This document shows, one piece after another, positions 8,653 through 63,375 of a stretch of 64,000 nucleotides of DNA (position 1 is its first letter; each line of letters begins with the position of its first letter). Made by a program: the position numbers and the translations under genes. Source of the stretch: Paenibacillus borealis (lineage in GTDB: Bacteria; Bacillota; Bacilli; Paenibacillales; Paenibacillaceae); the NCBI RefSeq assembly GCF_000758665.1, contig NZ_CP009285.1:1860001-1924000 (forward strand), written 5' to 3'. The notes below the pieces were generated by a model. It was not told the DNA's origin. It was given only the letters and a program-made list of their open reading frames with translations, and searched no databases.

Positions 8653-9705
8653 ATGTTATTAGAAATCGCCCCCGTTTCGGATAAGAACCACACCTGTCTG
8701 GAGAGTGTATACGCTACATTTCTGTTGTGGAACCAAAAGAGATATGAATTGCTTTTTGCTGGCTCCTGGAGCTTCTATCTGGAAGAGACCGATAGTATTT
8801 TTGGAACAAGACTTTCTAACGATAGAGGGGGAGCTTGGAGAAATACTTTGCAGGACCAGTATATGGAGCAATATTACGGTATAAAAGTGGTTTGGCACGA
8901 AACGGAAAATTTTGAAGAGTTAACACGAATTGTCGATGAGAATTTGAACAAATGTCTTCCAACCTGCATTTGTCTGGACTCCTATTGGTGTCCATGGGTC
9001 CCGTCATATCAAATCTATGATACGCCCCATTATTTTCTTATTGTCGGTAAAGATGATATCAGTGGAAACTACTTCTGTACAGATCCTCAATATCCGGCAC
9101 AGATTCATGAATTGACTCTTTATAATTTCGAGAAGGGTTTTTACGAAGAGGAACGGTTAAATCAGGAGTATGGTAAAGCGATTGTAGATGGATTCGGGGG
9201 ATGTGCCTCCTTTTTCATTGGTGGATGTGAAAAGGAAATCAACTATATAAGTATCTTGGAAGAAGCTTTGGCTGCAGTGTTCAAGGGGAGTGGAGGGAAA
9301 TCAGACTTTCATTATATGAGAGCGTTTGCAGATGAACTTGGGCAGATGGAGAATATTCTGCCGGAACTTCCCAAATTATCAGAAGTGGACCCGCATCATT
9401 CGTGGATATTTAGACGATTGGAGCATATTGCCTGGGGAAGGTTGAATTTTGCTAGGTTATTGAGAAGTTTCTATTCACAACACCCCCATGTTGAATTACT
9501 AGAGCTTGAGAATCAATTTGAGACGGGGGCGAAAAAATGGGAGAATATCAACTTCATGCTGCTGAAGGCATGCTATTTATTGGAACATGCAGGGCCGCTG
9601 CTTAAAAAAATTTCCGGTAACTTATACAGTCTTGCAAAATACGAGGAAGAAATTGCTGAAGGAATTAAATCAGTTTTACAAAGAACGAAAGGAGCAGCAA
9701 ATTAA
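8653..9705 (+). CDS. BtrH N-terminal-domain-like protein (acyltransferase/peptidase fold)
   Basis: A 350-residue protein resembling the BtrH_N family. It shows NHTCLES (Cys15), TPHYFLIVGKDD (His126) and NYFCTDPQY (Asp144), a Cys-His-Asp set with papain/C39-like order. The last 150 residues are helical, as in the other copies here. In butirosin biosynthesis BtrH moves an acyl chain from a carrier protein to an amine of the aminoglycoside. By analogy this protein should take an acyl chain from one of the cluster's carrier proteins. It is the first gene of the operon and its stop overlaps the NRPS start by one base. Its acceptor is unknown. A peptidase role is the alternative. Confidence 0.75.
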   Translation: MLLEIAPVSDKNHTCLESVYATFLLWNQKRYELLFAGSWSFYLEETDSIFGTRLSNDRGGAWRNTLQDQYMEQYYGIKVVWHETENFEELTRIVDENLNKCLPTCICLDSYWCPWVPSYQIYDTPHYFLIVGKDDISGNYFCTDPQYPAQIHELTLYNFEKGFYEEERLNQEYGKAIVDGFGGCASFFIGGCEKEINYISILEEALAAVFKGSGGKSDFHYMRAFADELGQMENILPELPKLSEVDPHHSWIFRRLEHIAWGRLNFARLLRSFYSQHPHVELLELENQFETGAKKWENINFMLLKACYLLEHAGPLLKKISGNLYSLAKYEEEIAEGIKSVLQRTKGAAN

Positions 9706-12101
9706 TGGCGTTGCAGAATGATTACCAAGGAACACTCGTTAATCCGAATGATACATACCGCATATATCCGCTTGAGAAAACAATACATATGCTGTTTGAA
9801 GAACAAGTGACAAGAACGCCTGACAAAACTGCGCTTGGGTTTAAAGGAAAGCGCTTAACTTATGAGGAACTGAATAAGCAAGCCAATAGACTGGCCCGTC
9901 TCTTAAGATCAAAAGGGGTCAAAACGGATAGTATTGTGTCGGTAATGGTTGAGAGATCTATGGATATGCTGATAGCTGTAATTGCTATTCTAAAGGCCGG
10001 TGGAGCTTTCTTGCCCATCGATCCCCACTTTCCAGCGTCACGGATCGAATACATGCTTTTGGACAGCACAACTAAACTCCTGATTACACAGGATAGTCTC
10101 AGTGATAATATCTGTGCTTCATATGATGGTGAGATTCTCTCTTTGGATCAAAATACTTGGTCTCATGAAGATGACTCCAATCTAACGCATACCGGAAGCG
10201 GAAACGATCTGGCGTATGTGATTTATACCTCCGGTTCTACGGGAAAGCCAAAAGGAGTTATGATTGAACATCAATCCGTGCACAATTTCATTATAGGTAT
10301 GACAGAAGCAATTGATTTAGACCCTGTATACACTATCGTTTCAGTAACAACGATGTCTTTCGATATATTTATCTTCGAAACCCTGCTGCCCTTAACTCGT
10401 GGTCTAAAAATTGTTCTTGCGGATCCAAAAGAATTGTACAGCAGTATCGGTATCAGCGAGATCAACATAATTCAGACTACACCCTCTACAATGCTTCTTT
10501 TACTAAATGATCCTGCGAATGAAGACATTATCATGAATCTTCGAGTAATTATGCTTGGGGGTGAACCGTTTCCCGCTGTTTTGCTTGATAAGCTAAAAGT
10601 AAAAACTTCTGCAAAGATATATAACATGTATGGTCCTACCGAAACAACGATTTGGTCCTCTGTCAAAGACTTGACTCATACGAATGATATAACATTAGGA
10701 AATCCTATAGCCAACACAAAACTTCATGTGCTGAACGAATCTCTTATTCCAGTACGCGATGGAGAGATTGGTGAATTGTTTATTTCCGGCGATGGCTTGG
10801 CCAGGGAATATTTGAATAAGCCTGAGCTGACGGACGAAAGATTCATAAGGAATTCGTCTGAGGTCCCAGGGGCAAGGATGTATCGCACCGGTGATTTAGT
10901 CAGGCGGAACGGTAACGGTGAATTAACCTTTCACGGAAGAGTAGATAATCAGGTAAAAATCAGAGGCTTCCGAATTGAGCTGGGAGATATTGAAGAGCAT
11001 CTCAGCAAATTCGATGGATTGAAGGAATGTGCTGTTACAGCAAAGGTGAACAAGTCGGGAGACTTCTACTTGGTTGCTTACTATGTCGCAGAAAAGCAGT
11101 ATGAAGCGTCCCATTTCATTAGGTATCTGTCTGACTTCATTCCGGAATACATGATTCCCGGTTTTTATTTACATATTGATTCTATCCCACGAACACCAAA
11201 CGGTAAATTGGACAGACGGTCGTTACCGGAACCGGATAACAGCCGCCCAATGCTTGAGACTAACTATGTTACACCTATTACTCTAGTTGAAAAGAAAATT
11301 GTTGAAATATGGATGAAGATCCTAGGGATGGATTTAGTAGGTATACATGATAACTTTTTTGAATTGGGCGGTAATTCTATTCTTCTGTCAGTGGCACATG
11401 CCGAGATTAAAAGAAATATACACCACGAGCTTGCTCTACCGGATTTATTCTCTAATCCAACGGTCTCCACATTGGCCGGATATATTTCTAAGGCCGTTAA
11501 TTCCGTTACCTCCAAACCGATTGAAGGGCTGCAATTTCCAACTGACTTCTTAACGTGCACACGTTTTCCGGGAGATACGGTGGGTTTAACCCATACGTTT
11601 AATCAGGATATTTGTCACACATTAACACAAATATGTGGAGAAGGAATCGATCTGGAGGATATCTTCGCCGGTGCATTCGCTTATGTTCTTTCAGAAACAT
11701 GCAGCAGTAGTGATATTATCCTGAATATTCCCCAAAATGATGGTGTTAATTTTATTTCAATTGAAACCAACCTCGATAAATTCGATGCCTTCGAAGAGAT
11801 ATTTAAGCACCTGCACTACAGTCAACGGGGGGCTAACCCGAGGAATCAATTTTCGATTGAGGAACTAAGCAACGCTGCCTGGCAGGGCGGAGTTGTACAT
11901 CCGGTTTTTGGCAAGTTTAGTCTAATGCAACAGCAATTTACGGAGTTGTTTGGCTTAGTTGGTTGCATCAAAGAAGCAAATGGACAAATTGAATTGATTT
12001 TTAGGCATGATGGCAGGATGCAGGCCCCTAAGATGAAGGAAGTCTTTAAGAACTATATTAAAGCAATTAAAGCTATAGCAAATTTAAATGAGAATAGGTG
12101 A
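9705..12101 (+). CDS. NRPS adenylation-carrier protein with truncated condensation-like tail
   Basis: A 798-residue protein. The A domain (about residues 25-500) shows YTSGSTGKPKG (A3), YNMYGPTETT (A5), YRTGDLVRR (A7) and NGKLDRRSL (A10). Reading the binding-pocket positions against GrsA by eye gives D-I-F-Q-M-G-M-I-W, closest to known glycine codes. A PCP follows, with the phosphopantetheine serine at 558 (LGGNS). The final 180 residues resemble only the C-terminal half of a condensation domain and lack HHxxxDG, so they probably serve as an interface and not as a catalyst. As the only A domain of the PKS part, it likely loads the starter amino acid for the first KS. Confidence 0.88.
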   Translation: MALQNDYQGTLVNPNDTYRIYPLEKTIHMLFEEQVTRTPDKTALGFKGKRLTYEELNKQANRLARLLRSKGVKTDSIVSVMVERSMDMLIAVIAILKAGGAFLPIDPHFPASRIEYMLLDSTTKLLITQDSLSDNICASYDGEILSLDQNTWSHEDDSNLTHTGSGNDLAYVIYTSGSTGKPKGVMIEHQSVHNFIIGMTEAIDLDPVYTIVSVTTMSFDIFIFETLLPLTRGLKIVLADPKELYSSIGISEINIIQTTPSTMLLLLNDPANEDIIMNLRVIMLGGEPFPAVLLDKLKVKTSAKIYNMYGPTETTIWSSVKDLTHTNDITLGNPIANTKLHVLNESLIPVRDGEIGELFISGDGLAREYLNKPELTDERFIRNSSEVPGARMYRTGDLVRRNGNGELTFHGRVDNQVKIRGFRIELGDIEEHLSKFDGLKECAVTAKVNKSGDFYLVAYYVAEKQYEASHFIRYLSDFIPEYMIPGFYLHIDSIPRTPNGKLDRRSLPEPDNSRPMLETNYVTPITLVEKKIVEIWMKILGMDLVGIHDNFFELGGNSILLSVAHAEIKRNIHHELALPDLFSNPTVSTLAGYISKAVNSVTSKPIEGLQFPTDFLTCTRFPGDTVGLTHTFNQDICHTLTQICGEGIDLEDIFAGAFAYVLSETCSSSDIILNIPQNDGVNFISIETNLDKFDAFEEIFKHLHYSQRGANPRNQFSIEELSNAAWQGGVVHPVFGKFSLMQQQFTELFGLVGCIKEANGQIELIFRHDGRMQAPKMKEVFKNYIKAIKAIANLNENR

Positions 12102-12105
12102 GCAT

Positions 12106-13374
12106 ATGAAAAAAATAGCCTTTCTGTTTCCAGGACAAGGTTCCCAATACCCGGGTATGGGAAAAGGTTTTTATGAAAGTAACCAATCTGTAAAACGAGT
12201 ATTTGAGGAAGTCAGTGATTCTTTGGGCATAGATATGGCCAAGCTTTGTTTTGAAAGTACCCCTGCAGAATTAGTGAAGACCGAGAATACTCAGCCTGCA
12301 ATCCTTACTGTAAGTGTAGCCATGTTTCAAATCTTTATGGATAGGGTTGGCGCAGAGCCTGATTACCTTGCCGGCCACAGCTTGGGAGAGTTCTCTGCTC
12401 TAGTCTGTGCGGGAGGAATCGGGTTAGGTGATGCTGCGAGAATTGTAAGACAACGGGGAAGATTCATGCAGGAAGCAGTGTCACTTGGAGCAGGGGCTAT
12501 GGCTGCGATAAGTGGGATTGACCTGGACAGCATAAAGAAACAATGTTTGCTATTACAGCATGAAGGGAAAGCGGTTGTAATATCCAATTACAACTCTCCC
12601 GACCAGACTGTCATTTCAGGAACTGCGGCAGGGGTCGAAGAAGCGAGTAGAGAGTTAACTAAACATGGAGCGACAGCCATCCCATTGCATGTTAGCGCGC
12701 CATTTCACAGTCAATTGATGACTGCAGCAGCGGATAAACTCGGAGATGAATTGGAAAAGTACACCTATCATCCTTTAAAGTGGCCCGTAATTTCTAATGT
12801 AACCGCTCTACCTTATCAGAATGAGCATATAATTAAAAACCTTCTCGCTGAACAAATGTCCAAGCCGGTACAGTGGGTTTACACAATGAATTATTTAGCA
12901 TCGGAGGGAGTGCAAGCATTCATTGAGCTTGGACCTAAGGATGTATTAAAAAAATTAGCGATGGTAAATACACCTAAACTGGAAGCTTATTCTTTTGATA
13001 AACCGGAGGATATGGATCAAATCAGCAGTTTGAGCGATGATGAGCCTCAAACGAAGAATTTCAGCAAAATTAAGCTCTTAACCAGGTCCCTGGCTATAGC
13101 TATATGTACACCGAATAAGAATTGGGATGATATGGAATATCGTCAAGGTGTTATTGAGCCGTATAAACGGATTGAAAGAATGGTAGAGGACTTAGAGCAG
13201 AACATGTTAGAACCTACAACAGAACAAATGAGTGAGGCGCTGGAGATGTTGCTCTCAGTCTTTCGTACAAAACGTACACCTATCGAAGAGCAAAAACAGA
13301 GATTCAATCAATTAATTAGTGAGCTTGGTATGGAAGAGTTTATTACCGGTGTGATTACAGTCTCTATGGGATAA
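12106..13374 (+). CDS. Discrete (trans-acting) malonyl-CoA:ACP acyltransferase
   Basis: A 422-residue protein of FabD fold with FLFPGQGSQYPGMG at the N-terminus and the nucleophile motif GHSLGEFSAL (Ser92). A helical tail of about 110 residues beyond the AT domain has no clear match. None of the seven PKS proteins contains an AT domain, so this enzyme should supply malonyl units to all of them, the defining feature of trans-AT PKS. The gene overlaps the NRPS end slightly. The ATG at 12106 begins the typical KKIAFLFPGQG segment, and an upstream ATG at 12088 is less likely. Confidence 0.92.
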   Translation: MKKIAFLFPGQGSQYPGMGKGFYESNQSVKRVFEEVSDSLGIDMAKLCFESTPAELVKTENTQPAILTVSVAMFQIFMDRVGAEPDYLAGHSLGEFSALVCAGGIGLGDAARIVRQRGRFMQEAVSLGAGAMAAISGIDLDSIKKQCLLLQHEGKAVVISNYNSPDQTVISGTAAGVEEASRELTKHGATAIPLHVSAPFHSQLMTAAADKLGDELEKYTYHPLKWPVISNVTALPYQNEHIIKNLLAEQMSKPVQWVYTMNYLASEGVQAFIELGPKDVLKKLAMVNTPKLEAYSFDKPEDMDQISSLSDDEPQTKNFSKIKLLTRSLAIAICTPNKNWDDMEYRQGVIEPYKRIERMVEDLEQNMLEPTTEQMSEALEMLLSVFRTKRTPIEEQKQRFNQLISELGMEEFITGVITVSMG

Positions 13375-13995: not shown

Positions 13996-14056
13996 AACCA
14001 AGTGACTGATATCCATAATTAAAAGAGAAATATTACTTTCTATGCGAGGAATGTCT

Positions 14057-17000
14057 ATGGATAAGATTAAGAAATACATATATAGGCAGGTTGCGGCTCA
14101 AAAGCTGACGAAGGAAGCAGCAAAAGAGATGCTGATGGAGCTTCAGGTGCACCCGGAAAAAACGGTAATTAAGGACCAGGTAGCCATCATCGGAATCGGG
14201 CTGCGTTTCCCCGATTCCGATTCTCCAGAGGAATACTGGTCGAATCTTTGTAAAGGCAACATTAGCATTAAGGATTTCCCGGAGGAGCGGCTAATGGATA
14301 TACCCGAAGGCCGGAGGAGGACGGGGAACATCAGGGTAAAGAGGGGCGGGTACTTATCCAATATCGACGCCTTCGATGCCGGGTACTACAACATCGCGCC
14401 GAGCGAAGCGAAATATATGAATCCGTTGCAGCGGGTATTTCTAGAATCGGCAACGGAAGCGGTTCAGGATGCGGGCTATGAAGGGAAACGGATCAGAAAG
14501 ACGAGAACCGGTGTCTACGTCGGAGTCGACCACACCTCGAAGCCGGAATATCCATTCGGGGAAGACAAGAACAATCCCTTGGCGATCACGGGAGCGTGGA
14601 CGGGAATATTGGCCAGCCGGGTATCCTATGTGTTTAACCTCCGGGGGCCGAGCATCGTGATTGATACGGCCTGCTCATCGGGGTTGGTCGCTGTACACAC
14701 AGCATGCAAAGCGATACAGGACCACGAATGTGACATGGCTATTGCAGGCGGTATAAGCATGGAGCTGGAACCGGCGTTCGAAGAGGATGCACTAAGCATG
14801 GTGGCATCCAAGGATGACAAAGTTAGGACGTTTGATAATAATGCCAACGGAACTGTATGGGGCGAAGGAGTGGGAGTGGTGGTCCTGAAGCCGCTGAGGA
14901 AAGCGGTGGAGGACAAGGACCACATTTATGCGGTAATCAAGGGGAGTGCAGTCAACAATGATGGGACGAGCAACGGGATTACAGCGCCGGATGCAGAAGC
15001 CCAGGAAGAAGTGTTGATGGGCGCCTGGGAGGATGCGGGGATCCATCCGGAAAGTCTATCCTACATAGAGGCGCATGGAACGGGAACGGTGTTAGGTGAT
15101 CCGATTGAAGTAAAGGGCCTGACCAGCGCATTTTCCCGGTACACGGACAAGAAGCAATTTTGCGGAATCGGGTCGGTCAAGACGAACATTGGTCATACGG
15201 TGGCAGCGTCGGGAATGGCTTCGTTGCTGAAGGTGGTGCTGTCGCTTCAAAAGAGAATGATACCTGGAACCCGGCATTTTGAAGCTCCCAACCGGTACAT
15301 TAATTTTCCGGGCAGTCCACTGTATATGGTGGACAAGACAAGAGAGTGGACAGAAGAGAAGGGGCCAAGACGGGCGGGGGTCAGTGCGTTTGGCTTTAGC
15401 GGGACCAACTGCCATATGGTACTGGAAGAAGCAAGTGGGCCGGAGACAGGATCAGAAGCGGGCGGGCTGGAAGGACTGATGCTGTCAGCCAAAACAACGA
15501 AAGCATTGCTTAAGCTGCTGGAAGCATATAAAGGGTATTTAGAGCGCAATCAAGGGGTCAGCAAAGAAGCGCTGAGCTACACAGCGAACACGGGCAGGGA
15601 GCATCATGCCTATAGAATTGCGATTACTTATGAAGAAACAAAGGAATTGAAGGAGAAAGTAACCGGGTTGGTGCAGCAGGGTCTGAGGGGAAACGTGGAA
15701 GAAGGCATTTTCTATGAAGCAGCGGGAGATGCGGCAAAAGAAGAAAAGAAGCGGCTCACGGAACTGGCGAAACAGCTAGTGGAGGAAATGAAACATGGAG
15801 ACCGCAGTCCCAAGAAGCTGAAGGAAATGTGCACCTGTTATGTAAAGGGCGCCGAAGTAGATTGGGAAGGTTATTACGAGGGGCAGGGCAGGCGCAAAAT
15901 TAGCTTACCTGTATATCCCTTTGAGAAAAAACGGTTCTGGCTTGATCTTGTAGATAATGGTTTATATCACCAGTCATCATGGGGCAGACGAAATTTAAGG
16001 GAATCGGATAGGATAGCATCCAGTGCAATCACACTAGTGCTTCAAGGTAACTCCAACATGTCTGATTTCATATTAAGAGAGGTTATTTCCAAGCGCAAAC
16101 GAGTTATTACAGTATGTTTAGGTACCCGGTATAGCTGTTCAAGCACGACTAGCTTTATTGTAAATGGATCTGAGGAAGATTACACCAGACTTTTCAAAGA
16201 GATAGGTGAAATCGATATTCAGCAGATTCTCCATCTCCAGACCTTGACTCCCGGAGCTGGAGAAGTTGAGAGTCTTACCGAGTTGCAAGAATACAACGCT
16301 AGAGGGTTACATAGTCTATTTAATCTTACAAGAGCTCTTCTCAAATCGCATAATACGGGGAAAATATTACTCAATGTAATCACCCCGTATGCTAACCCCG
16401 TTACAGAAGCACAGAAGTATATTAATCCCCATGGGGGAGCACTGTCTGCAATGGGAAAGGTGATCCGGTTGGAGCATCCTCAAATTCAGTGCAGAATAAT
16501 TGATATTGACGGGATTACGGATGTACAGGAAATATGGAAGGATATAGACCGGGAGCACGGGGAATATGCGGTTGCTTACCGGGACGGCCACCGATATGTT
16601 GAACATTTCAGAAGTTTGCATATGGTCGGTGAAAGTGACCAGCAAATCGAGATCAAAAATGACGGGGTATATGTAATAACCGGAGGAACTGGCGGAATTG
16701 GGCTAGAGCTTGCGTATTATTTATCCAAGAAGAATAGGGTTAGGATTGTACTGATTAATCGTTCTTCCTTTCCTGAACCTTCTGAATGGGACAGTGTTCT
16801 AGGGTTAAACAGAGACGAGCAGATTTGTAGTAAAATCAAAAAAATGAAACAAATTACAAATTCCGGCTCGCGACTAGAATTACATTGTGCAGATGTAAGC
16901 GATCTGGAGGAAATGAGTAAGGCATTACATAAGATACGAAATAAACATGGAAGAATCCATGGGGTGATTCATGGAGCAGGGATTGCCGGCACAGATGAAT

Positions 17001-18865
17001 TCATCATTAAAAAAGCTGCTGCATCATTTGAAAAAGAAATGGTTGCCAAAATTCAGGGGACTTGGATCATTGATAAATTGACTGAAAACGATTGTCTTGA
17101 TTTTATTATCTTTATTTCGTCTGTTGCTTCCATAGCCGGTGATGCAGGGCAGAGCGCTTATTCCTCAGCCAACCGATATATGGATACGTTTGCGGCTTAT
17201 AGGAACAAGAAAGGCAAGCGCACGCTGTCGATTAATTGGCCGGCTTGGAGAGAAGTAGGAATGACGGTACAACATGGTACCGAATTGCAGACAGGTGTTT
17301 TTGAAGCCATAAGCATTGATGAGGCCATTACGGCATTTGATGTATTGTTACATCAATCTCTTTCAAATGTAGTCGTAGGAAGGGTAGATCGGTCTAAAAA
17401 GGGCTGGACGGATAGGCTTGGGGTTGGGAATGAATCTGACCATGGGAGTCACGGAAGTGAGGTTATAGTTCAATCTGTACCACCGAAGGAATGTAACGGA
17501 ACTGAAGCTAAAATATGGAAAATATGGTCAGAAGTATTGGAATCGGACCTGATCGGATTGGATGATGATTTCATCGAAGTAGGAGGCAACTCCATACTTT
17601 CCATGAATATCGAGGTCAAAATGCAGCAACATTCAGGTGTGAAAATCAAGGAACTGGATTTGGAGATTTATAATACGATAAGAAAATTGGCAGCTTATAT
17701 CGACGGAAACGAATTCATCGCCACACCTGAAAAAGGGACGCTTGTACAAAGGGAGGTATTACTTCATCAATGGTTCCCATTTAACAATGTGTTTTATAAG
17801 TATTGCTTTTACAATTCTCTGTTTTCAATAGTATTTCACGCGCGAGGTAATATATTTCCTTATTTGGCAAATGATTTTATGCTTTATACTTACGGAAAAA
17901 CGGAAAGCCTGGCTGACTTTTTCGTAAGCTACCATTCCAGTCATTCCGTGCGGCAGCTTGCTGCCCTGATGGAAATTGACGTATATGCAGAAAGCCATTT
18001 TTCAAATAAACAGGCTGAATTCAATATCTCTGAGTCCGATATTGTTATGTTAAATAATTATTATGAAGACATCGGGACGGGAATATCTAATATGCGTCCG
18101 GTCTCTAAGTTGTTGGGAGCCTTGGAAGATGCAATGCGAAATAAGCGTCCTGTTATCATATGGATCGATTGTTTTTATGATTCAAACCGAAAGGATACTT
18201 ACAAAAAGCATCATTGGCCGCATGCATTGTTAATATTGGAAAATGATTCTGAAAACCGCCGGTTTTTAATCATTGATCATGACAAAAGAGGAAGCCTCAA
18301 TTATAAAAAACGTTACACCCGATACGAAGATGTTTTTCAAGCCTATGAGGGTTTTTTGGCGAATTATAAGATTCATACGAAGCTTCCGACATATTTTGAG
18401 TTTCATTACGAGCTTAAAGAGCTGGGAGATTATGAAAGTGAATTGAACCTAAGTCAGGTGACGTATGCGAAGAATATATTAAAGGTTAGTGAGAAGATAT
18501 ATACGGGATTAAGTGACTTAAATAGGTTTCTCATCAAAATTGAAGAAATCGTATCTATAGAAAGTCAATTCAGAATTCATGCGCAGGAATTAATCGAGAA
18601 GCTGAACGGAGTGTCAGACGGGAAAAGCATGGAAGCCTTTCGCTCCCGTATATTATGGGGGGCCTCGAGTCCGCTAACGGTCCAGGCAGATCATATATTA
18701 GCTAAGTGGGGACAAATGAAATCGATTATTACAAAATATTATTTCTCAGGAAAATATGATCCGGAAAAAATTGAGAATGTAAAATATCTCCTTCGTGATA
18801 TACAAAAGCGGGAAGAGGAATATTACATCTTAGTTTTATCGGAGATGGAAGACATTCTCAAGTGA
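14057..18865 (+). CDS. Trans-AT PKS module KS-KR-ACP with C-terminal BtrH-like domain (copy 1)
   Basis: A 1602-residue protein. An N-terminal helical docking-type segment (1-35) is followed by a KS with Cys206, His340 and His380 (DTACSS, EAHGTGT, NIGH), then the KS linker ending YPFEKKRFW near 627. Next come a KR (GGTGGIG about 875, Ser1022, Tyr1035) and an ACP (Ser1179 in VGGNSIL). The C-terminal domain, about 1217-1602, is BtrH-like with Cys1250, His1389 and Asp1407. There is no AT or DH. The predicted step is one extension giving a beta-hydroxyl. The BtrH-like domain occupies the place of the C-terminal docking segment found in neighbouring PKS proteins. I chose the ATG at 14057, with AGGA six bases upstream. 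The KS part is visibly GC-richer than the rest. Confidence 0.9.
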   Translation: MDKIKKYIYRQVAAQKLTKEAAKEMLMELQVHPEKTVIKDQVAIIGIGLRFPDSDSPEEYWSNLCKGNISIKDFPEERLMDIPEGRRRTGNIRVKRGGYLSNIDAFDAGYYNIAPSEAKYMNPLQRVFLESATEAVQDAGYEGKRIRKTRTGVYVGVDHTSKPEYPFGEDKNNPLAITGAWTGILASRVSYVFNLRGPSIVIDTACSSGLVAVHTACKAIQDHECDMAIAGGISMELEPAFEEDALSMVASKDDKVRTFDNNANGTVWGEGVGVVVLKPLRKAVEDKDHIYAVIKGSAVNNDGTSNGITAPDAEAQEEVLMGAWEDAGIHPESLSYIEAHGTGTVLGDPIEVKGLTSAFSRYTDKKQFCGIGSVKTNIGHTVAASGMASLLKVVLSLQKRMIPGTRHFEAPNRYINFPGSPLYMVDKTREWTEEKGPRRAGVSAFGFSGTNCHMVLEEASGPETGSEAGGLEGLMLSAKTTKALLKLLEAYKGYLERNQGVSKEALSYTANTGREHHAYRIAITYEETKELKEKVTGLVQQGLRGNVEEGIFYEAAGDAAKEEKKRLTELAKQLVEEMKHGDRSPKKLKEMCTCYVKGAEVDWEGYYEGQGRRKISLPVYPFEKKRFWLDLVDNGLYHQSSWGRRNLRESDRIASSAITLVLQGNSNMSDFILREVISKRKRVITVCLGTRYSCSSTTSFIVNGSEEDYTRLFKEIGEIDIQQILHLQTLTPGAGEVESLTELQEYNARGLHSLFNLTRALLKSHNTGKILLNVITPYANPVTEAQKYINPHGGALSAMGKVIRLEHPQIQCRIIDIDGITDVQEIWKDIDREHGEYAVAYRDGHRYVEHFRSLHMVGESDQQIEIKNDGVYVITGGTGGIGLELAYYLSKKNRVRIVLINRSSFPEPSEWDSVLGLNRDEQICSKIKKMKQITNSGSRLELHCADVSDLEEMSKALHKIRNKHGRIHGVIHGAGIAGTDEFIIKKAAASFEKEMVAKIQGTWIIDKLTENDCLDFIIFISSVASIAGDAGQSAYSSANRYMDTFAAYRNKKGKRTLSINWPAWREVGMTVQHGTELQTGVFEAISIDEAITAFDVLLHQSLSNVVVGRVDRSKKGWTDRLGVGNESDHGSHGSEVIVQSVPPKECNGTEAKIWKIWSEVLESDLIGLDDDFIEVGGNSILSMNIEVKMQQHSGVKIKELDLEIYNTIRKLAAYIDGNEFIATPEKGTLVQREVLLHQWFPFNNVFYKYCFYNSLFSIVFHARGNIFPYLANDFMLYTYGKTESLADFFVSYHSSHSVRQLAALMEIDVYAESHFSNKQAEFNISESDIVMLNNYYEDIGTGISNMRPVSKLLGALEDAMRNKRPVIIWIDCFYDSNRKDTYKKHHWPHALLILENDSENRRFLIIDHDKRGSLNYKKRYTRYEDVFQAYEGFLANYKIHTKLPTYFEFHYELKELGDYESELNLSQVTYAKNILKVSEKIYTGLSDLNRFLIKIEEIVSIESQFRIHAQELIEKLNGVSDGKSMEAFRSRILWGASSPLTVQADHILAKWGQMKSIITKYYFSGKYDPEKIENVKYLLRDIQKREEEYYILVLSEMEDILK

Positions 18866-19164: not shown

Positions 19165-19199
19165 AAAAATGGAAACCACTTGTATAAAGGGGGATGACA

Positions 19200-23915: not shown

Positions 23916-23929
23916 CAGAGGGCGATGGG

Positions 23930-29037: not shown

Positions 29038-29072
29038 AAAAATGGAAACCACTTGTATAAAGGGGGATGACA

Positions 29073-46526: not shown

Positions 46527-46546
46527 GAAGGTGGTTTTCATTCCAA

Positions 46547-47269: not shown

Positions 47270-47298
47270 AATGAACCTTACGATTGGAGGTGCTTGTC

Positions 47299-48982: not shown

Positions 48983-49051
48983 CGTTTAAGAACTAAAAAT
49001 CACGGGAGAGTTATAGAAATATCAATTATTTATTTTTGTGAGGTGTCAGAC

Positions 49052-49870
49052 TTGAGTGAGATTCATATAGTTACTGCCACAAATGATAACTATGCTAATC
49101 AATTATGTGTAATGCTAAACTCTATGTTTATCAATAAAGCATCTGACAAATATGTCCATCTTTACCTACTGTATGACAATCTCTCTATAAAAAATATGAA
49201 TAAATTGGATGAGATCGCCCAGCGGTACGGGGCAGCGATCAATTTTATATTAGTAAATCGTGATATTTTTAATGGATTCATTGAAAAACCGTATATTACC
49301 TTGGAATCTTATTATCGAATCATTGTTCCAAGCTTAATAGAACACGTGGACAAGGTAATATATCTCGACTGCGATCTGATCATTGACGGTGATATCACCG
49401 AATTGTGGAATATTGAATTAGGGGATTATTACATCGGAGCTGTTGAAGGAGCCTATAAAGACAGGATGGAGATACTTAGCATCCCTGAATTGTTTGGGTA
49501 TTTTAATGCTGGCGTATTATTAATCAATATGAGTAAGTGGAGAGAAAACAATATCTCAGAGATAGTTCTTGATTGGATTAAAAACAATTCTGAGAAAATA
49601 AGGCATATGGATCAAGACGCGCTGAATGCTGTGTTATTCAATAAACGGTATATACTTAGCCCCGTATGGAATTATACTACAGGACATTTTGAAAATTTGA
49701 AACTTTTTATTGATGCGAAAATATACCATTTCACTGGTCCCAAAAAGCCTTGGCTTACAGAGCATCCTTTCGGTGGTAAGTACTTTCAATATTCTCGGCT
49801 CCATGAAGAAACAAATTTCAGTACATTACCTGATCGGGAGGAGATACTAGGTAATGAAAGAAGTGATTAA
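49052..49870 (+). CDS. Family 8 glycosyltransferase
   Basis: A 272-residue GT8-type enzyme: IVTATNDNYANQLCVMLNS at the N-terminus, the metal-binding DxD motif YLDCDL (Asp106, Asp108), FNAGVLLINM, HMDQDALN and the late HFTGPKKPW motif. It should move a hexose from a nucleotide sugar with retention of configuration. TTG 49052 has AGGTG six bases upstream. The gene ends inside the start of the next gene (17-bp overlap), so its product probably acts together with that BtrH-like protein. Confidence 0.92.
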   Translation: MSEIHIVTATNDNYANQLCVMLNSMFINKASDKYVHLYLLYDNLSIKNMNKLDEIAQRYGAAINFILVNRDIFNGFIEKPYITLESYYRIIVPSLIEHVDKVIYLDCDLIIDGDITELWNIELGDYYIGAVEGAYKDRMEILSIPELFGYFNAGVLLINMSKWRENNISEIVLDWIKNNSEKIRHMDQDALNAVLFNKRYILSPVWNYTTGHFENLKLFIDAKIYHFTGPKKPWLTEHPFGGKYFQYSRLHEETNFSTLPDREEILGNERSD

Positions 49871-54690: not shown

Positions 54691-54949
54691 TCAAAAAATT
54701 AGAACGATCCTTAGTGAAATGACGAATCAAGATTTAGATTTACTGGGGGAAGACTTTGTCTTAACACGGGATTTAGGTTTTGATTCAATACGTTTTATTG
54801 CGCTCATAGTGAATATAGAAAATGTGTTTTTAATTAATTTCGATGACAAATACCTTTCCATTGATAAAATCGATCAGTATTCTTTATTACTGGCCTATGT
54901 ATGTCTAATGGTCTCGGAGTTGAAAACAAATGATTCTCAATCGTCTTGA
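54674..54949 (+). CDS. Acyl carrier protein of the AT-rich block
   Basis: A 91-residue carrier protein with the attachment motif LGFDSIRFI (Ser near residue 37). It overlaps the ligase upstream and the PaaK/CapK-like gene downstream. It is different in sequence from the PKS-associated free ACP. It could deliver its acyl group to one of the BtrH-like acyltransferases, as BtrI does to BtrH. Confidence 0.88.
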   Translation: MRKEVDQKIRTILSEMTNQDLDLLGEDFVLTRDLGFDSIRFIALIVNIENVFLINFDDKYLSIDKIDQYSLLLAYVCLMVSELKTNDSQSS

Positions 54950-56090
54950 CAACCGCTTTTTAGATTTGATGCGAAGCTTGAAATCGAAGAATGAATACTA
55001 CAAAGACAAGTTATCTAGCTTAGATCTAATCAATATTAATCCTGATCAGTTATATGAAATGCTCCCGTATACAGAACGAATGGATTTGCAGGAATTAGGT
55101 GAAACCATATATACATCTACTAACGAAGAAATTATTGTTGAAATGACTACTGGGACTACAGGAGTACCCTTACGATGTCCTAAAAATACTCGTGAACGTA
55201 CAGATCTGGCTTTCGATATCTGGAAAAAAAGGCTATCAATAGACCGGGAAATAACGCCTAATAATTTCTATTTATTATATGGTTCTAATGCAAGAAAAGT
55301 ATACAACTTTTTTGATTATGATATCCAGAATCTAAACAACTGCTTTAAATATTTATCACATATTCAGCCTCGTTGGTTATGCGGTTCGGTATCTGCCTTT
55401 TATAATTATGCTCAAGAGATCGATAATGGTAAATTACATCATAATATTGACAGCTTGCGTTATATAGAGTTTCAGGGTGAATATGTTGACCAAGAGAAGA
55501 GAGAATATATTGAAGACATCTTTAAGGTCAAAAGCGTTGTACATTATGGAAATAGAGAAATGTGGACCATAGCCTATGAGTGTAAGCATCAAACGCTACA
55601 TCTCAATAGTAATGCAGTATACATAGAAATCAGGAATAATGACCCGGATAATGAATATGGAAATATTGTAACCACGAATTTACAATTGAAAACCCTTCCA
55701 ATTATTAAATATGATACAGAAGATCTTGGATGTCTGATTGAGGTTGATTGTCCGTGCGGAAATAATAGTGCATTAAAAATGATTGACGGAAGAATATCCA
55801 CACTAATTAAAGGAACCAAACTAAATGGCAATATTGTAATGAAAGGAATATACAATCGTATTGTCCGTAAAAATCAAAAGATCATGAAAAGATTTCGTGT
55901 TGTACAAATAGCTCCTAATAACTTTGATGTATTTATTATCAGGGGTGTAGAATTTTATGATGGATTACAAGTACTAATAAAGGATGAGTTCAGAAAAGTG
56001 ATGGGGGAAGAAGTAGTCATTAATATTTTTTACGAGGATAGAATTGTGAGCAATAATGGAAAAATGGCTATATTTTCAGTGAATTATTAA
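54930..56090 (+). CDS. PaaK/CapK-like adenylate-forming enzyme
   Basis: A 386-residue protein with hallmarks of the phenylacetate-CoA ligase / CapK / F390 synthetase branch: MTTGTTGVPL near residue 71, YGNREMW, KYDTEDLGCL, a CPCG pair and DGRIS(T)LIKG. It probably activates a second acid as an adenylate. The partner that receives the acyl group is unknown; the ACP gene it overlaps is one candidate. Having two ligases of different families side by side suggests two separate acids, or one acid handled in two steps. Confidence 0.85.
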   Translation: MILNRLDNRFLDLMRSLKSKNEYYKDKLSSLDLININPDQLYEMLPYTERMDLQELGETIYTSTNEEIIVEMTTGTTGVPLRCPKNTRERTDLAFDIWKKRLSIDREITPNNFYLLYGSNARKVYNFFDYDIQNLNNCFKYLSHIQPRWLCGSVSAFYNYAQEIDNGKLHHNIDSLRYIEFQGEYVDQEKREYIEDIFKVKSVVHYGNREMWTIAYECKHQTLHLNSNAVYIEIRNNDPDNEYGNIVTTNLQLKTLPIIKYDTEDLGCLIEVDCPCGNNSALKMIDGRISTLIKGTKLNGNIVMKGIYNRIVRKNQKIMKRFRVVQIAPNNFDVFIIRGVEFYDGLQVLIKDEFRKVMGEEVVINIFYEDRIVSNNGKMAIFSVNY

Positions 56091-56132
56091 TTTTCTTCAA
56101 GAATGAACACAGTAAAAAGGAGTGCTTTTGTT

Positions 56133-57728
56133 GTGAAGGTATTATTATTATCTATTCAGGGAAAAGGGAATGAAATTATCGAAGAACCAGGCCTTGGTAG
56201 CTTAGCAGCTTCAGTAGGTGCAGAGGGCCATGAAGTGAAAGTAAAAAGATTTGCATATGAACTTGATTATGAACAATACCTAAAGGAATTTAATCCGGAT
56301 ATTATTGGGATTACAACATACGATAGATATTTCCATCACCAGGTTGAATATGCAAAGAAACTGAAACAAATTTTACCTTCCGTTGTAATAAGTATGGGGG
56401 GATATACAGCCACATATCATTATATGGATATAATGAAAGAATATGAATTTGTTGATTACATTATTATTGGTGAAGGCGAAATTTCTTTCACTCAACTAAT
56501 AAAGAGTATTGAAAATAAAAGTAGCACCAAGGATATCAAGGGATTATGTTACCGATATCACAGTGAAATAATTGTTAATGAAGGTTGCTCTGTGGTTGAT
56601 AACCTCGACGAATTACCATTTACTAATAGGGACATGCTTTTAGAACAAAAAAATAATCTAGTCAATATTACTACAACAAGAGGCTGTAGCTCTACTTGTA
56701 CTTTCTGCTGTTCCAATAATTTCTGGAGAAATGGAGAACGAAGACGTTTCTTTCGTAAAATGTCAGCAACGCGTGTGGTTGACGAAATTGAATACTTGAA
56801 AGATAAATACAATAAAAATAGGTTTGTATTCAATGATAATAGTTATGAAGATTCCGGGATGAACAGACAAATTGAGGTTGCAAATGAATTAATGAAGAGG
56901 AATATTAAAATTGGATATAATGTTAATTATAGAGTTAATTTCTATAAAAAAGCATCAGAAGAGTTTATGTCACTATTAATTTCATCTGGATTATGTTCCG
57001 TATTTTTGGGTGTTGAGTCTGGAAATGATAAAGATTTAATATTGTACAACAAAAGAACAACGACGGATGATTGCTTTAATGCTGTACGATTTTTTTCTCA
57101 ATTTGAGGATTTAGCGCTCATGATTGGATTCATAAACTTCAGTCCCTATTCGAGTGTTGAAACTCTCCAAGAAAATGTGATTTTCTTAAGGGAGATTGGG
57201 TATGCATGTGATTTGTCGAATTTTAGCAGTTGTCTAATTCCATTTAAAGGAACTTCATTGTATGAAAAAATAGAATCTGATGGACTATTAATAAAAGGTC
57301 CTCATATTGGAATGAATTCATTTAAATTTGAAAATGATCAAGTGGAAAGTGTTTATAAATATCTTGATCATGTTGTGAAAACAAATAAGATCCTAAAACA
57401 ATCGAGTTATTTATGTGGGGTCTTCCCCACAATATTAGTATTTCTCATGCGTGATGCCAAGAATAATAATGATACGACAGCTATGGAAATCATTAGTAAC
57501 GCAAATGTGGAAATGGAAAAGCTAAAAAGCGAGTTGAATCTAAAAATTAGTGAGTGGATGTTGGAATTATTGGAAACTGATAAGCTGGATACGAAAGCAG
57601 ATGCTATAACGGAAAAATATCTCATACATCAAAATATCAGCAGCATTTATTCAGATTTAATGGCTGCTAGAAATAATTTATATAAAAACTTATGCCGTCA
57701 TGACCCATATTATCTAAGCAGATTTTAA
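56133..57728 (+). CDS. B12-binding radical SAM enzyme
   Basis: About 531 residues. The N-terminal cobalamin-binding-like region includes SLAASVGAEGHEV and IIIGEGEISF. The radical SAM cluster motif CX3CX2C is at Cys185, Cys189 and Cys192 (RGCSSTCTFCC), followed by a barrel with VFLGVESGNDKDL. Class B radical SAM proteins of this type usually methylate unreactive carbons or rearrange rings. I chose GTG 56133, with AAGGAG upstream, over ATG 56103. It likely tailors the building block or final product. Confidence 0.9.
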   Translation: MKVLLLSIQGKGNEIIEEPGLGSLAASVGAEGHEVKVKRFAYELDYEQYLKEFNPDIIGITTYDRYFHHQVEYAKKLKQILPSVVISMGGYTATYHYMDIMKEYEFVDYIIIGEGEISFTQLIKSIENKSSTKDIKGLCYRYHSEIIVNEGCSVVDNLDELPFTNRDMLLEQKNNLVNITTTRGCSSTCTFCCSNNFWRNGERRRFFRKMSATRVVDEIEYLKDKYNKNRFVFNDNSYEDSGMNRQIEVANELMKRNIKIGYNVNYRVNFYKKASEEFMSLLISSGLCSVFLGVESGNDKDLILYNKRTTTDDCFNAVRFFSQFEDLALMIGFINFSPYSSVETLQENVIFLREIGYACDLSNFSSCLIPFKGTSLYEKIESDGLLIKGPHIGMNSFKFENDQVESVYKYLDHVVKTNKILKQSSYLCGVFPTILVFLMRDAKNNNDTTAMEIISNANVEMEKLKSELNLKISEWMLELLETDKLDTKADAITEKYLIHQNISSIYSDLMAARNNLYKNLCRHDPYYLSRF

Positions 57729-59392: not shown

Positions 59393-61109
59393 AGTATCGT
59401 ATCTGCGGGGTATCCTGCCCTATTTAAATGTTAAACGGAACATGATGAACCTTACAATGAATAAATTTATTATGTTACTTTCAGGGATTGGTATTACCTA
59501 TACTTACAAGATATTCATTGATGAGTTACTAGGTACCCCACAATTCAGCACCATAACCGTTATACTCATATTTTATTCGTCATTAGTGGCACTCTCTGCT
59601 ATTTCTCAAATGGTAAATTGTAAAAATGAAGTTTTGATTATAACAAAATATAGTAACAATATGCGTAGTAGGTTATTGAGTAAGATTTACAATAACAATA
59701 TACAAGAAAAAGATAATAAAGAAATCTTATTCGATTATGTGAAGAGTACTGAAGGGTTTATTAGTCAATCAATAGATATAATAATGCTCGTATTGTCGCT
59801 GATTGTTTATTTCTTTCTTTTAATGTTTCATAACTGGATTTTAACAATATTGATATTAATGTTCATTCCATTTTCAATCATGATATCAGCATATCTAGCT
59901 CGCAGAGTAAGAAGTCTTGATAGAGATTATAAAAAAATCTTTGCTGATTATGAAAGAGATACATCAGACATACTCGGTAATATTAAACATGTAAAATCAA
60001 ACAATGCTGAAGTATTCATGCAAACTAAATTCAAAAAAAACTGGGATATACTGAACAAGCTGTATGTAAAACAATTTTTTTATTGGTGTTTGGATATCAG
60101 TTTATTTGAAATAAAGGAAAAAATCATATCGAGAATTATGCTGTTTTGTGTCGGGGGACTACTCATTATATATGGAAAAATGGACGTAGCAACCTTAGTA
60201 GTTATACTTTCATTTAATGATAAAATAATTGAGGGTATTGTACAATTGAATGAACTCTATCTTAAGGGTGAAATTGAGAAAATAGCACTTGATAGAATAT
60301 TAGTTGTATTAAACAGGGATGAGCCGATACAAAGCATAGACCTGGAGAACTCAGAATTATCTATACTGGTCGATAACCTTAGCTATAGTTATGAATCTAA
60401 ACAAGTGCTAGAGAAGATAAATTTAGAGATGGGTAAATATGGGATATACTCCATTGTGGGAGAGAGTGGCTCTGGTAAAACTACATTAGTCAATTTATTG
60501 TTGAAGATTTTGGAACTGAAGCAAGGTAATATACGGATCGGTAATAAAGATATAAATAAAATTCCAATACATTCTTTATATAAGCATATTGGCGTGGTGA
60601 CTCAGGATGCAGTTTTATTTGATATGTCGATAAAGGAAAATATTTTAATATCAAATCCAGAAGCTGATGATGAACTTGTTTTAGAATGTTGCAAACGAGC
60701 AGATTTATTTAATTTCGTAAATGAATTGACGAACGGCTGGGATACAGAAATTGGTGAAAGAGGAGTTTTATTATCAGGAGGTCAAAGGCAAAAAATAGCT
60801 TTAGCAAGACTCTTTTTGAAGAAACCACTAATCTATGTTCTTGATGAAGCAACATCTAACATTGATTTAGAGGCGGAAATTATAATTAGACAAAGTTTAA
60901 ATTTGTTGAGAGAAACAAACCTTATAATTATTATCTCTCATAGACTAACGTTAGTTAAAGATTCCGATTCTATTTTTGTTCTGAAGGACGGCAATATATT
61001 AAATAGGGGTTCACATGCAGAGTTGTCTGCTACGTCTGAGGAATATATAAGGGTTATTGCAGGAAAAGATCTTGAAGTACGCCAAGGGGGATATTATGAA
61101 TACGTATGA
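59385..61109 (+). CDS. ABC exporter half-transporter 2
   Basis: A 574-residue protein with N-terminal membrane helices and a C-terminal ATPase: GESGSGKTTL, LSGGQRQKIALARL, VLDEATSNIDL and ISHRLTLV. The ATG at 59385 overlaps the end of half-transporter 1, and a longer start at 59364 is less likely. Neither half carries an N-terminal C39 peptidase domain, so leader-peptide cleavage is not indicated. Confidence 0.92.
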   Translation: MNRVSYLRGILPYLNVKRNMMNLTMNKFIMLLSGIGITYTYKIFIDELLGTPQFSTITVILIFYSSLVALSAISQMVNCKNEVLIITKYSNNMRSRLLSKIYNNNIQEKDNKEILFDYVKSTEGFISQSIDIIMLVLSLIVYFFLLMFHNWILTILILMFIPFSIMISAYLARRVRSLDRDYKKIFADYERDTSDILGNIKHVKSNNAEVFMQTKFKKNWDILNKLYVKQFFYWCLDISLFEIKEKIISRIMLFCVGGLLIIYGKMDVATLVVILSFNDKIIEGIVQLNELYLKGEIEKIALDRILVVLNRDEPIQSIDLENSELSILVDNLSYSYESKQVLEKINLEMGKYGIYSIVGESGSGKTTLVNLLLKILELKQGNIRIGNKDINKIPIHSLYKHIGVVTQDAVLFDMSIKENILISNPEADDELVLECCKRADLFNFVNELTNGWDTEIGERGVLLSGGQRQKIALARLFLKKPLIYVLDEATSNIDLEAEIIIRQSLNLLRETNLIIIISHRLTLVKDSDSIFVLKDGNILNRGSHAELSATSEEYIRVIAGKDLEVRQGGYYEYV

Positions 61110-62184
61110 TCAACTGAATAATCGAACCAGTAAGCGGATGAGAATTTATGCACATTTAAGTCGAATCAATAAGAAGTACAATTTAAAAAGCTTATATATC
61201 CCTCCTATATCAATGGAAATTTTTCCGACAAATATCTGTAATTCCAGTTGTAAATTCTGCGCTTTTCACGAACGGAAAGGGGAGCATTTGGATAACAATA
61301 TATTTGAATCAGTTGTGGAATCCTGCATAGAGATGGGCGTAAAATCTGTAACTATATCAGGAGGCGGAGAACCCACACTACATCAATACTTACCCATAGC
61401 AATAAATAAATTGGTTACTCATGGCATACAGGTAGGTCTTATAACAAATGGAGTGCATTTTAGTGAAGAACTAGAAAAAACAATTAATAAATGTAGTTGG
61501 GTTAGAGTTTCACTTTTGGCCGGAAATGCTGATCAATATTGCAGGTACATGAAATTCAATAGAGAACAATTTGATAAAGTTATAGGGAATTTATCCAGAT
61601 TGGCCGATAGCAAGCAAAACATGATCTTGGGTACTACGATGATGTTAAGTAGTGAATATGGGGATTATAATTCTATTATTGAATACCTTGATGTAGTTTC
61701 AAAATTGAAAGTTGACCAAGTGTTCTTCACGGAAATGTTGGACGACTTTGGAGAATTTAAAATGAACAAAGACTACTATAGAAGCATTATAGATTCAGTA
61801 ATACAACATGCAGAAAAGAGAAATATTGTTACCAATATAAGAAAATTTACTCAGGTTGAAAGCCAACCATACATTGATAAGGTACCAAATGAGAAATGTT
61901 CAATTATTGAAAAAAATCTAATTGGACTTGTTGTGCCAGATGGACGGGTTTTTTCTTGCTTGGGTCAGTATACAGCCATCGACAACGATAGAAGTTTAGG
62001 GAACGTAAACGACCAAGACTTAACGAAGATTTATAATCCGGCCAACTTAAATGAAAAAAATCAATTGATTTGCGAGAATGTATGCTCATATTGCAAGAAT
62101 GCAAGTACCAGGATGGAACTTGATCGATATTTTTGCTCGAAGAAAGTTAAAAAAGTAAATGATCCTCATCATATGTTTATCTGA
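61096..62184 (+). CDS. Radical SAM enzyme with SPASM/Twitch-like C-terminus
   Basis: A 362-residue protein with CX3CX2C at Cys48, Cys52 and Cys55 (NICNSSCKFCAF), the GGGEPTL motif and a cysteine-rich C-terminus (CSII, FSCLGQY, CENVCSYC) that should hold extra iron-sulfur clusters. Enzymes of this kind dehydrogenate sugars or aminocyclitols (BtrN of butirosin) or modify peptides. No small precursor peptide gene is visible nearby, so a sugar or small-molecule substrate is more likely. ATG 61096 has AAGGGGG upstream and overlaps the ABC gene. Confidence 0.85.
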   Translation: MNTYDQLNNRTSKRMRIYAHLSRINKKYNLKSLYIPPISMEIFPTNICNSSCKFCAFHERKGEHLDNNIFESVVESCIEMGVKSVTISGGGEPTLHQYLPIAINKLVTHGIQVGLITNGVHFSEELEKTINKCSWVRVSLLAGNADQYCRYMKFNREQFDKVIGNLSRLADSKQNMILGTTMMLSSEYGDYNSIIEYLDVVSKLKVDQVFFTEMLDDFGEFKMNKDYYRSIIDSVIQHAEKRNIVTNIRKFTQVESQPYIDKVPNEKCSIIEKNLIGLVVPDGRVFSCLGQYTAIDNDRSLGNVNDQDLTKIYNPANLNEKNQLICENVCSYCKNASTRMELDRYFCSKKVKKVNDPHHMFI

Positions 62185-62310
62185 GGTAATAACAGCCAGG
62201 CCCCCTAAACTCGGAATATCACTCACCCAAAATCATCCTCACCCATTGCGAAAAGATAGTTAAGTAACCTCATTTCATTTATATCCTGAAATAGCTGGGA
62301 GAGAGAATTG

Positions 62311-63375
62311 ATGAGTCGAAAAGTTCTGCCAATTAAGAAGCCTTTAGTAAAATGCTATCTGTATGATGCCTGTCCACTATCTATCTTGGCTAATACAGAA
62401 GATTATCTGGAATGGTTCTATAGTAACTATATTCAGTTATTCTGCAGTAAAAATATATTGGAGGATGGGTATTTATTTCTTGAGTTTTACGGGAAAAATC
62501 AGGCTTTCACCTCTCCTTGGCTTCAGAATCAACATTTGTCAGGATATGCATTAGTCAAGACACAGCAGGACATTATAAAGTTTATTATAGACAATATTGA
62601 TCTTGGCTACTATTTTTATGGCCATTTAGATGATTTTTATGTCCCCTTCAGAATGGGCTATCGAACATTTCATTATTTACATGATCTGATGATCTATGGT
62701 TACGATGAGGAAGAAAATGTTTTTTTGGTAATGGCGTATGACAAGAATGCGCTTTTTGGTCACTTCGAGATTAGTTTTGATACATTTAAACAGGGATTTT
62801 CGCTGGATTATTCTATGACTACAAATAAACCATATTGGTACGATTGGGTCTATCTTTTCAAATTCAATAACCACGGGCAGTACAACTTTGATTTGAAGCT
62901 GGTAGAAGAACTGCTCCATGATTATTTATTTGGTATAAATACTTCTGAGAAACATCGGGCCTCAAGTAATCCATGGCCAAATGAGAACAAAGCTTTCGGA
63001 ATGGAGGTGTATCAATATTTAAAAATGTATTTTATGCATCTGCTGAACCGCAAAATTGAATTTGATATAAGAATTACTAGTATTTTGGTTGAGCATAAAA
63101 GAAGTATGTTGGGAAGGATAAAGTACATACACGAAAAAGGATACCTCCAGGGTTTAGAACCTCTCTATGAGCGGTATGTTGAAGTGGAGAAGACATTCAT
63201 TACTTTTCAAGGACTTATGATTAAATATAGGGTAACGGGGAAAAGAGCATGCATAGATAAAATTATTAATTCTCTTGACGACATTGCTCAAAAAGAAAAA
63301 ATGATTTTATCCGAGCTGTTGAAGAAAATCGAACAGAATAATGCATTGAGGAAATGGAAGGAGATTGTGCAATGA
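62311..63375 (+). CDS. BtrH-like protein, seventh copy in the window
   Basis: A 354-residue protein with VKCYLYDACPLS (Cys15), YLHDLMIYGYDEEEN (His) and LVMAYDKN (Asp), then a long helical C-terminal half. It follows the radical SAM gene after a 126-bp gap with no clear terminator, and its stop overlaps the next glycosyltransferase start (ATGA). Pairing of a BtrH-like gene with a glycosyltransferase also occurs at 49052-51425, which suggests the acceptor may be sugar-linked. ATG 62311 follows GGGAGAGAG. Confidence 0.65.
   Translation: MSRKVLPIKKPLVKCYLYDACPLSILANTEDYLEWFYSNYIQLFCSKNILEDGYLFLEFYGKNQAFTSPWLQNQHLSGYALVKTQQDIIKFIIDNIDLGYYFYGHLDDFYVPFRMGYRTFHYLHDLMIYGYDEEENVFLVMAYDKNALFGHFEISFDTFKQGFSLDYSMTTNKPYWYDWVYLFKFNNHGQYNFDLKLVEELLHDYLFGINTSEKHRASSNPWPNENKAFGMEVYQYLKMYFMHLLNRKIEFDIRITSILVEHKRSMLGRIKYIHEKGYLQGLEPLYERYVEVEKTFITFQGLMIKYRVTGKRACIDKIINSLDDIAQKEKMILSELLKKIEQNNALRKWKEIVQ

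Follow-up and report, generated by a model that had tools for sequence, protein, structure and literature searches.

Organization of the gene cluster

The window analysed here is a 64,000-nucleotide stretch of the Paenibacillus borealis genome (NZ_CP009285.1, positions 1,860,001 to 1,924,000). According to Pfam scans and the flanking sequence, it holds most of a gene cluster, which begins at about position 8653 and ends about 3.7 kb to the right of the window. Eight proteins or domains encoded in this cluster resemble cysteine proteases in fold or sequence, and two of them form the C-terminal parts of PKS proteins. A GmrSD-type restriction protein is encoded to the left of the cluster (5699-7168).

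The first gene (8653..9705, +) encodes B1, a free-standing BtrH-like protein of 350 aa. It is followed by a 798-aa protein with an adenylation domain and a carrier protein (9705..12101, +; PF00501, PF13193 and PF00550), a free-standing trans-acyltransferase with a GHSLG motif (12088..13374, +; PF00698), and, between this acyltransferase and PKS1, a 202-aa protein without Pfam match (13387-13995). PKS1 (14042..18865, +) has the order KS-KR-ACP-BtrH-like, as read from Pfam matches and from the KS Cys and carrier Ser motifs. Its BtrH-like domain (17762..18862, +) comprises residues 1241-1607 according to the structure model, fold matches and alignment. PKS2 (19194..23915, +) shows the Pfam domains KS-DH-KR-ACP. 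PKS3 (23930..28738, +; BtrH-like domain at 27635..28735, +) and PKS4 (29067..33788, +) are tandem duplicates of PKS1 and PKS2, respectively, PKS3 being nearly identical to PKS1. PKS5 (33803..36058, +; 751 aa) is a KS-ACP protein by its Pfam matches, and PKS6 (36097..40761, +) and PKS7 (40774..45408, +) have the Pfam domains KS-DH-KR-ACP. Each of the seven PKS proteins retains TACSS and a Ser motif of the carrier type. The trans-AT setting named in the original prediction was confirmed by the separate acyltransferase gene at 12088 and by the absence of an AT match from PKS1, PKS2, PKS5, PKS6 and PKS7. A scan of the same five proteins revealed no PF00975 thioesterase at a C-terminus, and the GxSxG pattern was absent from all seven PKS proteins.

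The end of the PKS7 gene is overlapped by the start of the gene for B4 (45405..46526, +), a free-standing protein of the PKS-fused clade (E 1.8e-104 with A3, the profile of this clade). Next come a free-standing thioesterase (46481..47269, +; PF00975), a nitroreductase-family protein (47284..47883, +; PF00881), the free-standing BtrH-like protein B5 (47942..48982, +), a GT8 glycosyltransferase (49043..49870, +; PF01501), and B6 (49854..51425, +), which was recognised by PF14399 and alignments. The C-terminal extension of B6 (50892-51422, 177 residues) has no Pfam match. A free-standing pyruvate-kinase-barrel protein of 333 aa (51589-52590) is also encoded inside the cluster, and a DUF218 gene separates its gene from that of an AMP-binding ligase (53227..54690, +; PF00501). 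The ligase gene is followed by genes for a PaaK-like adenylate-forming protein (54930..56090, +; NCBIfam matches below cut-off), a B12-binding radical SAM protein (56103..57728, +; PF02310 and PF04055), two ABC transporter proteins (57749-59392 and 59364-61109, +; PF00005 and PF00664), a second radical SAM protein (61057..62184, +; PF04055), the free-standing BtrH-like protein B7 (62308..63375, +), and a GT2 glycosyltransferase cut at the window end (63354..64000, +; PF00535). B7 has homologues with 82% identity in Paenibacillus sp. FSL R7-277 and 79% in P. vini. Outside the window the cluster continues with a second GT2 gene and a gene for a protein of 350 aa that has no Pfam match, followed by the gene for B8, an eighth BtrH-like protein (L020:3611-4726). 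The B8 gene begins 2.6 kb from the window end.

Tandem duplication of PKS1 and PKS2

The segment 14057-23929 occurs again at 23930-33802 as a tandem repeat of 9,873 bp. The two copies differ by 10 mismatches, all within the first 703 bp, and their last 9,170 bp are identical (99.94% over 9,935 bp in blastn, first bases trimmed). The part without mismatch (14760 to 23929) includes the BtrH-like domain, and the domains of PKS1 and PKS3 are therefore one sequence. The PKS1 KS recurs once more in PKS5, with 98.4% identity over 1,879 bp (33803-35681). The second KS copy is a mosaic: among the positions that vary between the three copies, those in 14060-14182 and 14743-14759 match the third copy and all others the first. 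Unequal recombination between KS genes would account for such a pattern, and the duplication is, judging from the sequences, recent. We also considered that the repeat might be an assembly error; the mosaic is as expected from recombination, and a real event is likelier.

BtrH-like copies and their relationships

All seven BtrH-like ORFs of the original prediction exist, with starts at 8653, 14042/14057, 23930, 45405, 47942, 49854 and 62308/62311. In PKS1 and PKS3 the domain lies at the C-terminus, as had been proposed, where it forms the last 367 residues and is not found at the ORF starts. In the BtrH_N search all seven copies matched PF14399 at E <= 0.001, most of them scoring below the curated Pfam cut-off of 29.7 bits in hmmscan. 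The scores there were 51.0 bits for B5, 37.1 for B1, 25.3 for B4, 25.0 for PKS1, 22.8 for B7 and 19.9 for B6, so that two of the six window proteins scanned passed (B1 and B5; the PKS3 domain is identical to that of PKS1); B8 missed the cut-off with 17.2 bits. In a six-frame search four of seven passed. Two of these did so only once neighbouring pieces were counted in, and PKS1 and PKS3 reached 29.8 bits there with such pieces included. Nine PF14399 matches were found in the whole 8.16-Mb genome. Since seven of these lie inside the window, the clustering of the copies is not a matter of chance.

The number of seven had to be revised in two ways. B8 adds a copy beyond the window end, and the PKS1 and PKS3 domains are the same duplicated sequence. 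The eight copies thus represent seven distinct sequences from about five old subfamilies. A tree (quick search, LG+G4, SH-aLRT only, with many long branches), which we used for coarse clades, grouped the PKS1 domain with B4 (the fused clade) and B1 with B6, placed B5 with Lachnospiraceae proteins, and put B7 and B8 in clades of their own. Apart from the PKS1/PKS3 pair, the copies are by these groupings old paralogues with relatives elsewhere. Profile comparisons with hhalign connected A3 with A4 (E 5.5e-15), A3 with B6 (E 1.2e-6) and A4 with B8 (E 1.2e-10). A3 recovered B1 (E 0.0055) and B5 (E 0.013, helical end only) unclearly as single sequences, and these two are therefore tied to the group through PF14399.

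DarH, a named relative of BtrH (NCBIfam NF053550, "BtrH-related acyltransferase"), belongs to polyketide pigment pathways. Its profile matched B5 (26.3 bits) and B1 (15.7 bits) weakly and gave no match to the PKS1 domain, B4, B6, B7 or B8; its cut-off of 300 bits was reached by none of the copies here.

Catalytic residues

The model and alignment of the PKS1 domain place a catalytic triad at Cys1255, His1394 and Asp1412. Among 55 aligned sequences of the PKS-fused clade, Cys is present in all 55, partly by construction as it belongs to the search pattern described below, His in 54, and an acidic residue in all 55 (Glu in 51 and Asp in four, the PKS1 domain having Asp). The sequence without His is a free-standing protein of Bacillus inaquosorum, which has Asn instead (L105:9977-10948). 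By eye, the triad is also present in B1 (Cys15, His and Asp), B5 (Cys12, His and Asp) and B8 (with Glu as the acid), and B4 has Cys21, His and, again by eye, Glu. B6 retains Cys18 and has Gly at the His position in the alignments.

B7 keeps His124, has Ala at the acid position and, according to model and alignment, has Leu17 in place of the nucleophile. This feature is shared by the B7 clade (29 aligned sequences), in which the nucleophile position, set by the helix start in two models together with the alignment, is occupied by Leu (22), Pro (4), Thr (2) or His (1), and His is kept in all 29. The two residues flanking this position that are Cys in B7 are Cys in five and six of the 29 sequences.

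The Cys-His-Glu/Asp triad is thus found in the fused clade, B1, B5 and B8 and is incomplete in B6 and B7. It appears to be kept in at most six copies, five of them distinct, and B6 (Gly for His) and B7 (a Cys-less clade) look non-catalytic. The sequence features in the original prediction fared accordingly. Not every copy shows both Cys and His. The motif given as H-x6-G reads H-x5-G, and its Gly is missing by eye from the PKS copies and B5. An Asp about 17 residues past the His is present in B1, PKS1/PKS3 and B5, and the corresponding position, 16-18 residues after His by eye, holds Glu in B4 and B8 and Ala in B7.

Predicted structures and known relatives

Structures were predicted for the PKS1 domain (pLDDT 91.0) and B7 (pLDDT 89.7). 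In both, a papain-like N-terminal half and a helical C-terminal half form one fold, and Foldseek matched both models across nearly their full length to CcbD, CtaG and AziU3. For B7, CtaG lay outside the 11 matches at E <= 0.001 and was found on a second look. The proposed BtrH-like fold holds for these two modelled copies, and their solved full-length relatives include carrier-dependent amide-forming enzymes. As most copies match BtrH_N, albeit mostly below the Pfam cut-off, and the two predicted folds are related ones, the assignment was not refuted.

When solved structures were searched by sequence, neither the single proteins nor profiles A3 and A4 matched CcbD or CtaG. The link to these enzymes thus comes from the predicted structures. 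AziU3 appeared as a weak match of A3 (E 0.11-0.12). CcbD and its counterpart LmbD, the lincosamide amide synthases, are free-standing, with about 8-11% identity to the modelled copies and no sequence-level match, and differ from B7 and B6 in that B7 lacks the Cys and B6 the His. In CcbD, arginines contact the carrier protein. CtaG of closthioamide biosynthesis, also free-standing, is 11-14% identical to the modelled copies. CcbD is reported to use a Cys-His-Glu ping-pong reaction, in which a carrier-bound acyl group passes to the Cys and from there to a sugar amino group, and to take varied acyl groups (PMC12945683). BtrH is described as an acyltransferase from ACP to an aminoglycoside in butirosin biosynthesis (PMC10318531). 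Unlike the PKS-fused copies, BtrH is free-standing; the likeness is one of PF14399 family, drawn via the family profile, and most copies here lie below the Pfam cut-off. AziU3 is reported to be an aziridine synthase acting together with AziU2, which is non-acyl chemistry and not that of an acyltransferase (PMC12559475). Other reports describe BtrH-family transacylase-like enzymes in further ACP-containing neighbourhoods (PMC2922099) and a dialkylresorcinol cluster with a "BtrH-like peptidase" (PMC3949708). The examined text of the flavoaffinin paper mentions neither BtrH nor peptidases (PMC11839114).

Fused domains across Bacillota

Genome contigs were scanned with the motif PFN[DEN][LVI][FY][YF][KR]xC, which includes the Cys. 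At least 80 stretches matched, 67 of which encode a relative. Among the matches listed, all 67 loci, which include near relatives that are not independent, belong to Bacillota (Paenibacillus, Cohnella, Ruminiclostridium, Alkaliphilus, Lachnospiraceae, Bacillus inaquosorum and others). In these listed loci the domain is fused in 53, with the motif over 150 residues from the start of the frame, and free-standing in 14. L054, one of the latter, begins at the end of its locus and could be a truncated fusion. The distance from the motif to the protein end is 314-388 residues (L048 is cut by a contig end), and the domain is therefore C-terminal in all 67 listed loci. In the 53 listed fused loci, the domain directly before it is a carrier protein (45), an A domain (5) or a condensation-type stretch (2), with none in one locus. 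Within the stored flank, 45 of these 53 loci have no megasynthase gene downstream on the same strand, a count biased towards "nothing downstream" by loci with little downstream sequence (e.g. L048, L060 and L095), and eight have one.

The companions of the domain, whose family representatives were checked against Pfam, include B7-like proteins in 29, radical SAM proteins of about 380 aa in 23 and GT2 glycosyltransferases in 10 of the 67 loci listed. In 16 of the listed loci (L045, L049, L051, L052, L055, L057, L059, L062, L066-L068, L070, L078, L079, L101 and L109), the order by eye is KS-ACP-BtrH-like, a protein of 380-387 aa and a B7-like protein. This small conserved operon, which can also comprise A-ACP, AT and KS-KR in Paenibacillus, occurs in Paenibacillus and Chengkuizengella; its 380-387-aa protein is radical SAM where recognised, and a GT2 is often present. 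Two or more BtrH-like ORFs were found in 37 of the 67 loci among the matches listed (loci up to about 21 kb). The eight copies in the present cluster are the highest number seen, the maximum elsewhere being five per locus (L030 and L050); 23 multi-hit genomes were mapped with PF14399 only, by which larger sets may be missed.

In the family of the host, 86 of 394 genomes matched profile A3 at E <= 1e-12. Eight of the 86 matched more weakly than 1e-15, through partial matches to other subfamilies only, and in 12 the sole relative was free-standing, with E values of 1e-35 to 1e-38. At E <= 1e-40, 66 of 394 genomes matched, including that of P. borealis itself and some with free-standing proteins.

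Other fusions were also observed. Four loci (L038, L039, L041 and L050) encode a second, divergent C-terminal BtrH-like fusion, in three of them after KS-DH-KR-ACP, with the Cys in an SWRQFCYDRG setting and without the PFN motif. An NRPS protein at L043:3-8480 ends in a B7-like domain of the Cys-less type. At about 4.42 Mb in the P. borealis genome, a 979-aa protein has the order A-carrier-BtrH-like (L022:7089-10028), and a close relative of it occurs in P. phytohabitans (L107).

A possible role in chain release

We lean towards the view that the fused copies in PKS1 and PKS3 serve as built-in acyltransferases with the BtrH/CcbD/CtaG fold and detach the chain from the adjacent carrier protein without a thioesterase domain. 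The computed support consists of the fold, the triad, the place directly behind the ACP and the C-terminal recurrence in many PKS and NRPS proteins. The Glu usual in the fused clade and the adjoining carrier protein agree with the reaction of CcbD. By analogy with CcbD, the chain on the ACP would first be transferred to Cys1255 of the fused domain. An acceptor amine (or hydroxyl) would then attack the acyl-Cys thioester, aided by His1394 and Asp1412, and the product would be an amide or ester, with no thioesterase domain needed. An amine is more probable as the acceptor than a hydroxyl, since the product of CcbD is an amide and the substrate that BtrH acylates is an aminoglycoside. From the glycosyltransferases of the cluster and the same precedents we infer that the acceptor may be of the sugar type; the low frequency of GT2 among the listed loci weakens a sugar acceptor as the general case. 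This low frequency and the Asp of PKS1, where the clade usually has Glu, also speak against this reading.

Among the other copies, B4 probably performs the same release in trans, and B1, B5 and B8 are probably separate transferases. As each lacks one catalytic residue, B6 and B7 are probably partner or binding proteins or enzymes of other chemistry. As far as the alignments indicate, they could not follow the Cys-acyl scheme, and AziU3-type non-acyl chemistry would be one option for B7.

The alternative with the best standing is that the fused domain passes the chain to another carrier protein, or performs AziU3-like non-acyl chemistry, instead of releasing it. This is unlikely but gains some weight from the gene order, as more PKS genes come after PKS1 and PKS3 in the cluster. 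Together with the free thioesterase and the eight of 53 fused loci that have downstream megasynthase genes, this order leaves release at the end of the line unproved. AziU3 is moreover as good a fold match as CcbD, and neither CcbD nor CtaG was matched at the sequence level, which again weighs against release; for the Cys-less B7 clade other chemistry is a serious option. Retention of Cys, His and the acid in the fused clade and the 45 listed fused loci with nothing downstream argue against it for the fused domain.

It is rather improbable that the fused domain is a hydrolase, that is, a papain-fold thioesterase using water to free or proofread the chain on the ACP. The same triad, acyl-Cys chemistry and terminal position would serve such an enzyme, but the cluster already has a separate thioesterase, and CcbD and CtaG, which match the fold over its full length, are described as amide-forming or peptidyl-transferring. 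The original prediction of several acyl transfers, taken as seven separate ones, is very doubtful. The copies do belong to several old clades with relatives elsewhere, and their functions may differ, but two of them are one duplicated domain, B6 lacks the base and B7 the nucleophile. That the copies are C39-like peptidases maturing a peptide is hardly credible: although radical SAM and ABC genes are nearby and B4, alone among the six window copies scanned, exceeds the Peptidase_C39_2 cut-off (25.3 versus 24 bits), the domain is fused behind carrier proteins, and peptidase entries cover just the N-terminal half of the PKS1-domain model (to about residue 222 of 367). Of the inferred roles that had been proposed (release, side chains and shuttling), chain release has the best comparative support.

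Implications

The fold itself is not new; a known enzyme fold is found here in a new arrangement. In a literature search with little coverage of subscription journals, fusion of a BtrH-like or CcbD-like domain to a PKS or NRPS was mentioned in no title or abstract opening among those listed. The phenomenon is wider than one cluster, in that a recurrent terminal PKS/NRPS domain occurs in Bacillota, and its role is likely release. A bolder reading, which we offer tentatively, is that these domains form an unlisted class of megasynthase release, in which a C-terminal, carrier-linked Cys-His-Glu acyltransferase of the CcbD/CtaG fold would end Bacillota PKS and NRPS lines by means of an external amine or hydroxyl. 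It would often be accompanied by a Cys-less paralogue, either a retained pseudo-acyltransferase or an enzyme that catalyses something else. In P. borealis, eight active or apparently inactive units, with the fused module doubled by KS recombination, might then yield a multiply acylated, glycosylated product, in which the number of acyl groups would vary with module copy number.

The Cys-less companion clade would offer a test of a non-catalytic partner role versus non-acyl chemistry as reported for AziU3. The release mode of an assembly line sets the type of its product (acid, ring, amide or ester). Should the fused domain serve in release, a carrier protein with about 330 further residues would be a compact part for making amides, and many Bacillota clusters would be predicted to yield amides or esters of an external acceptor.
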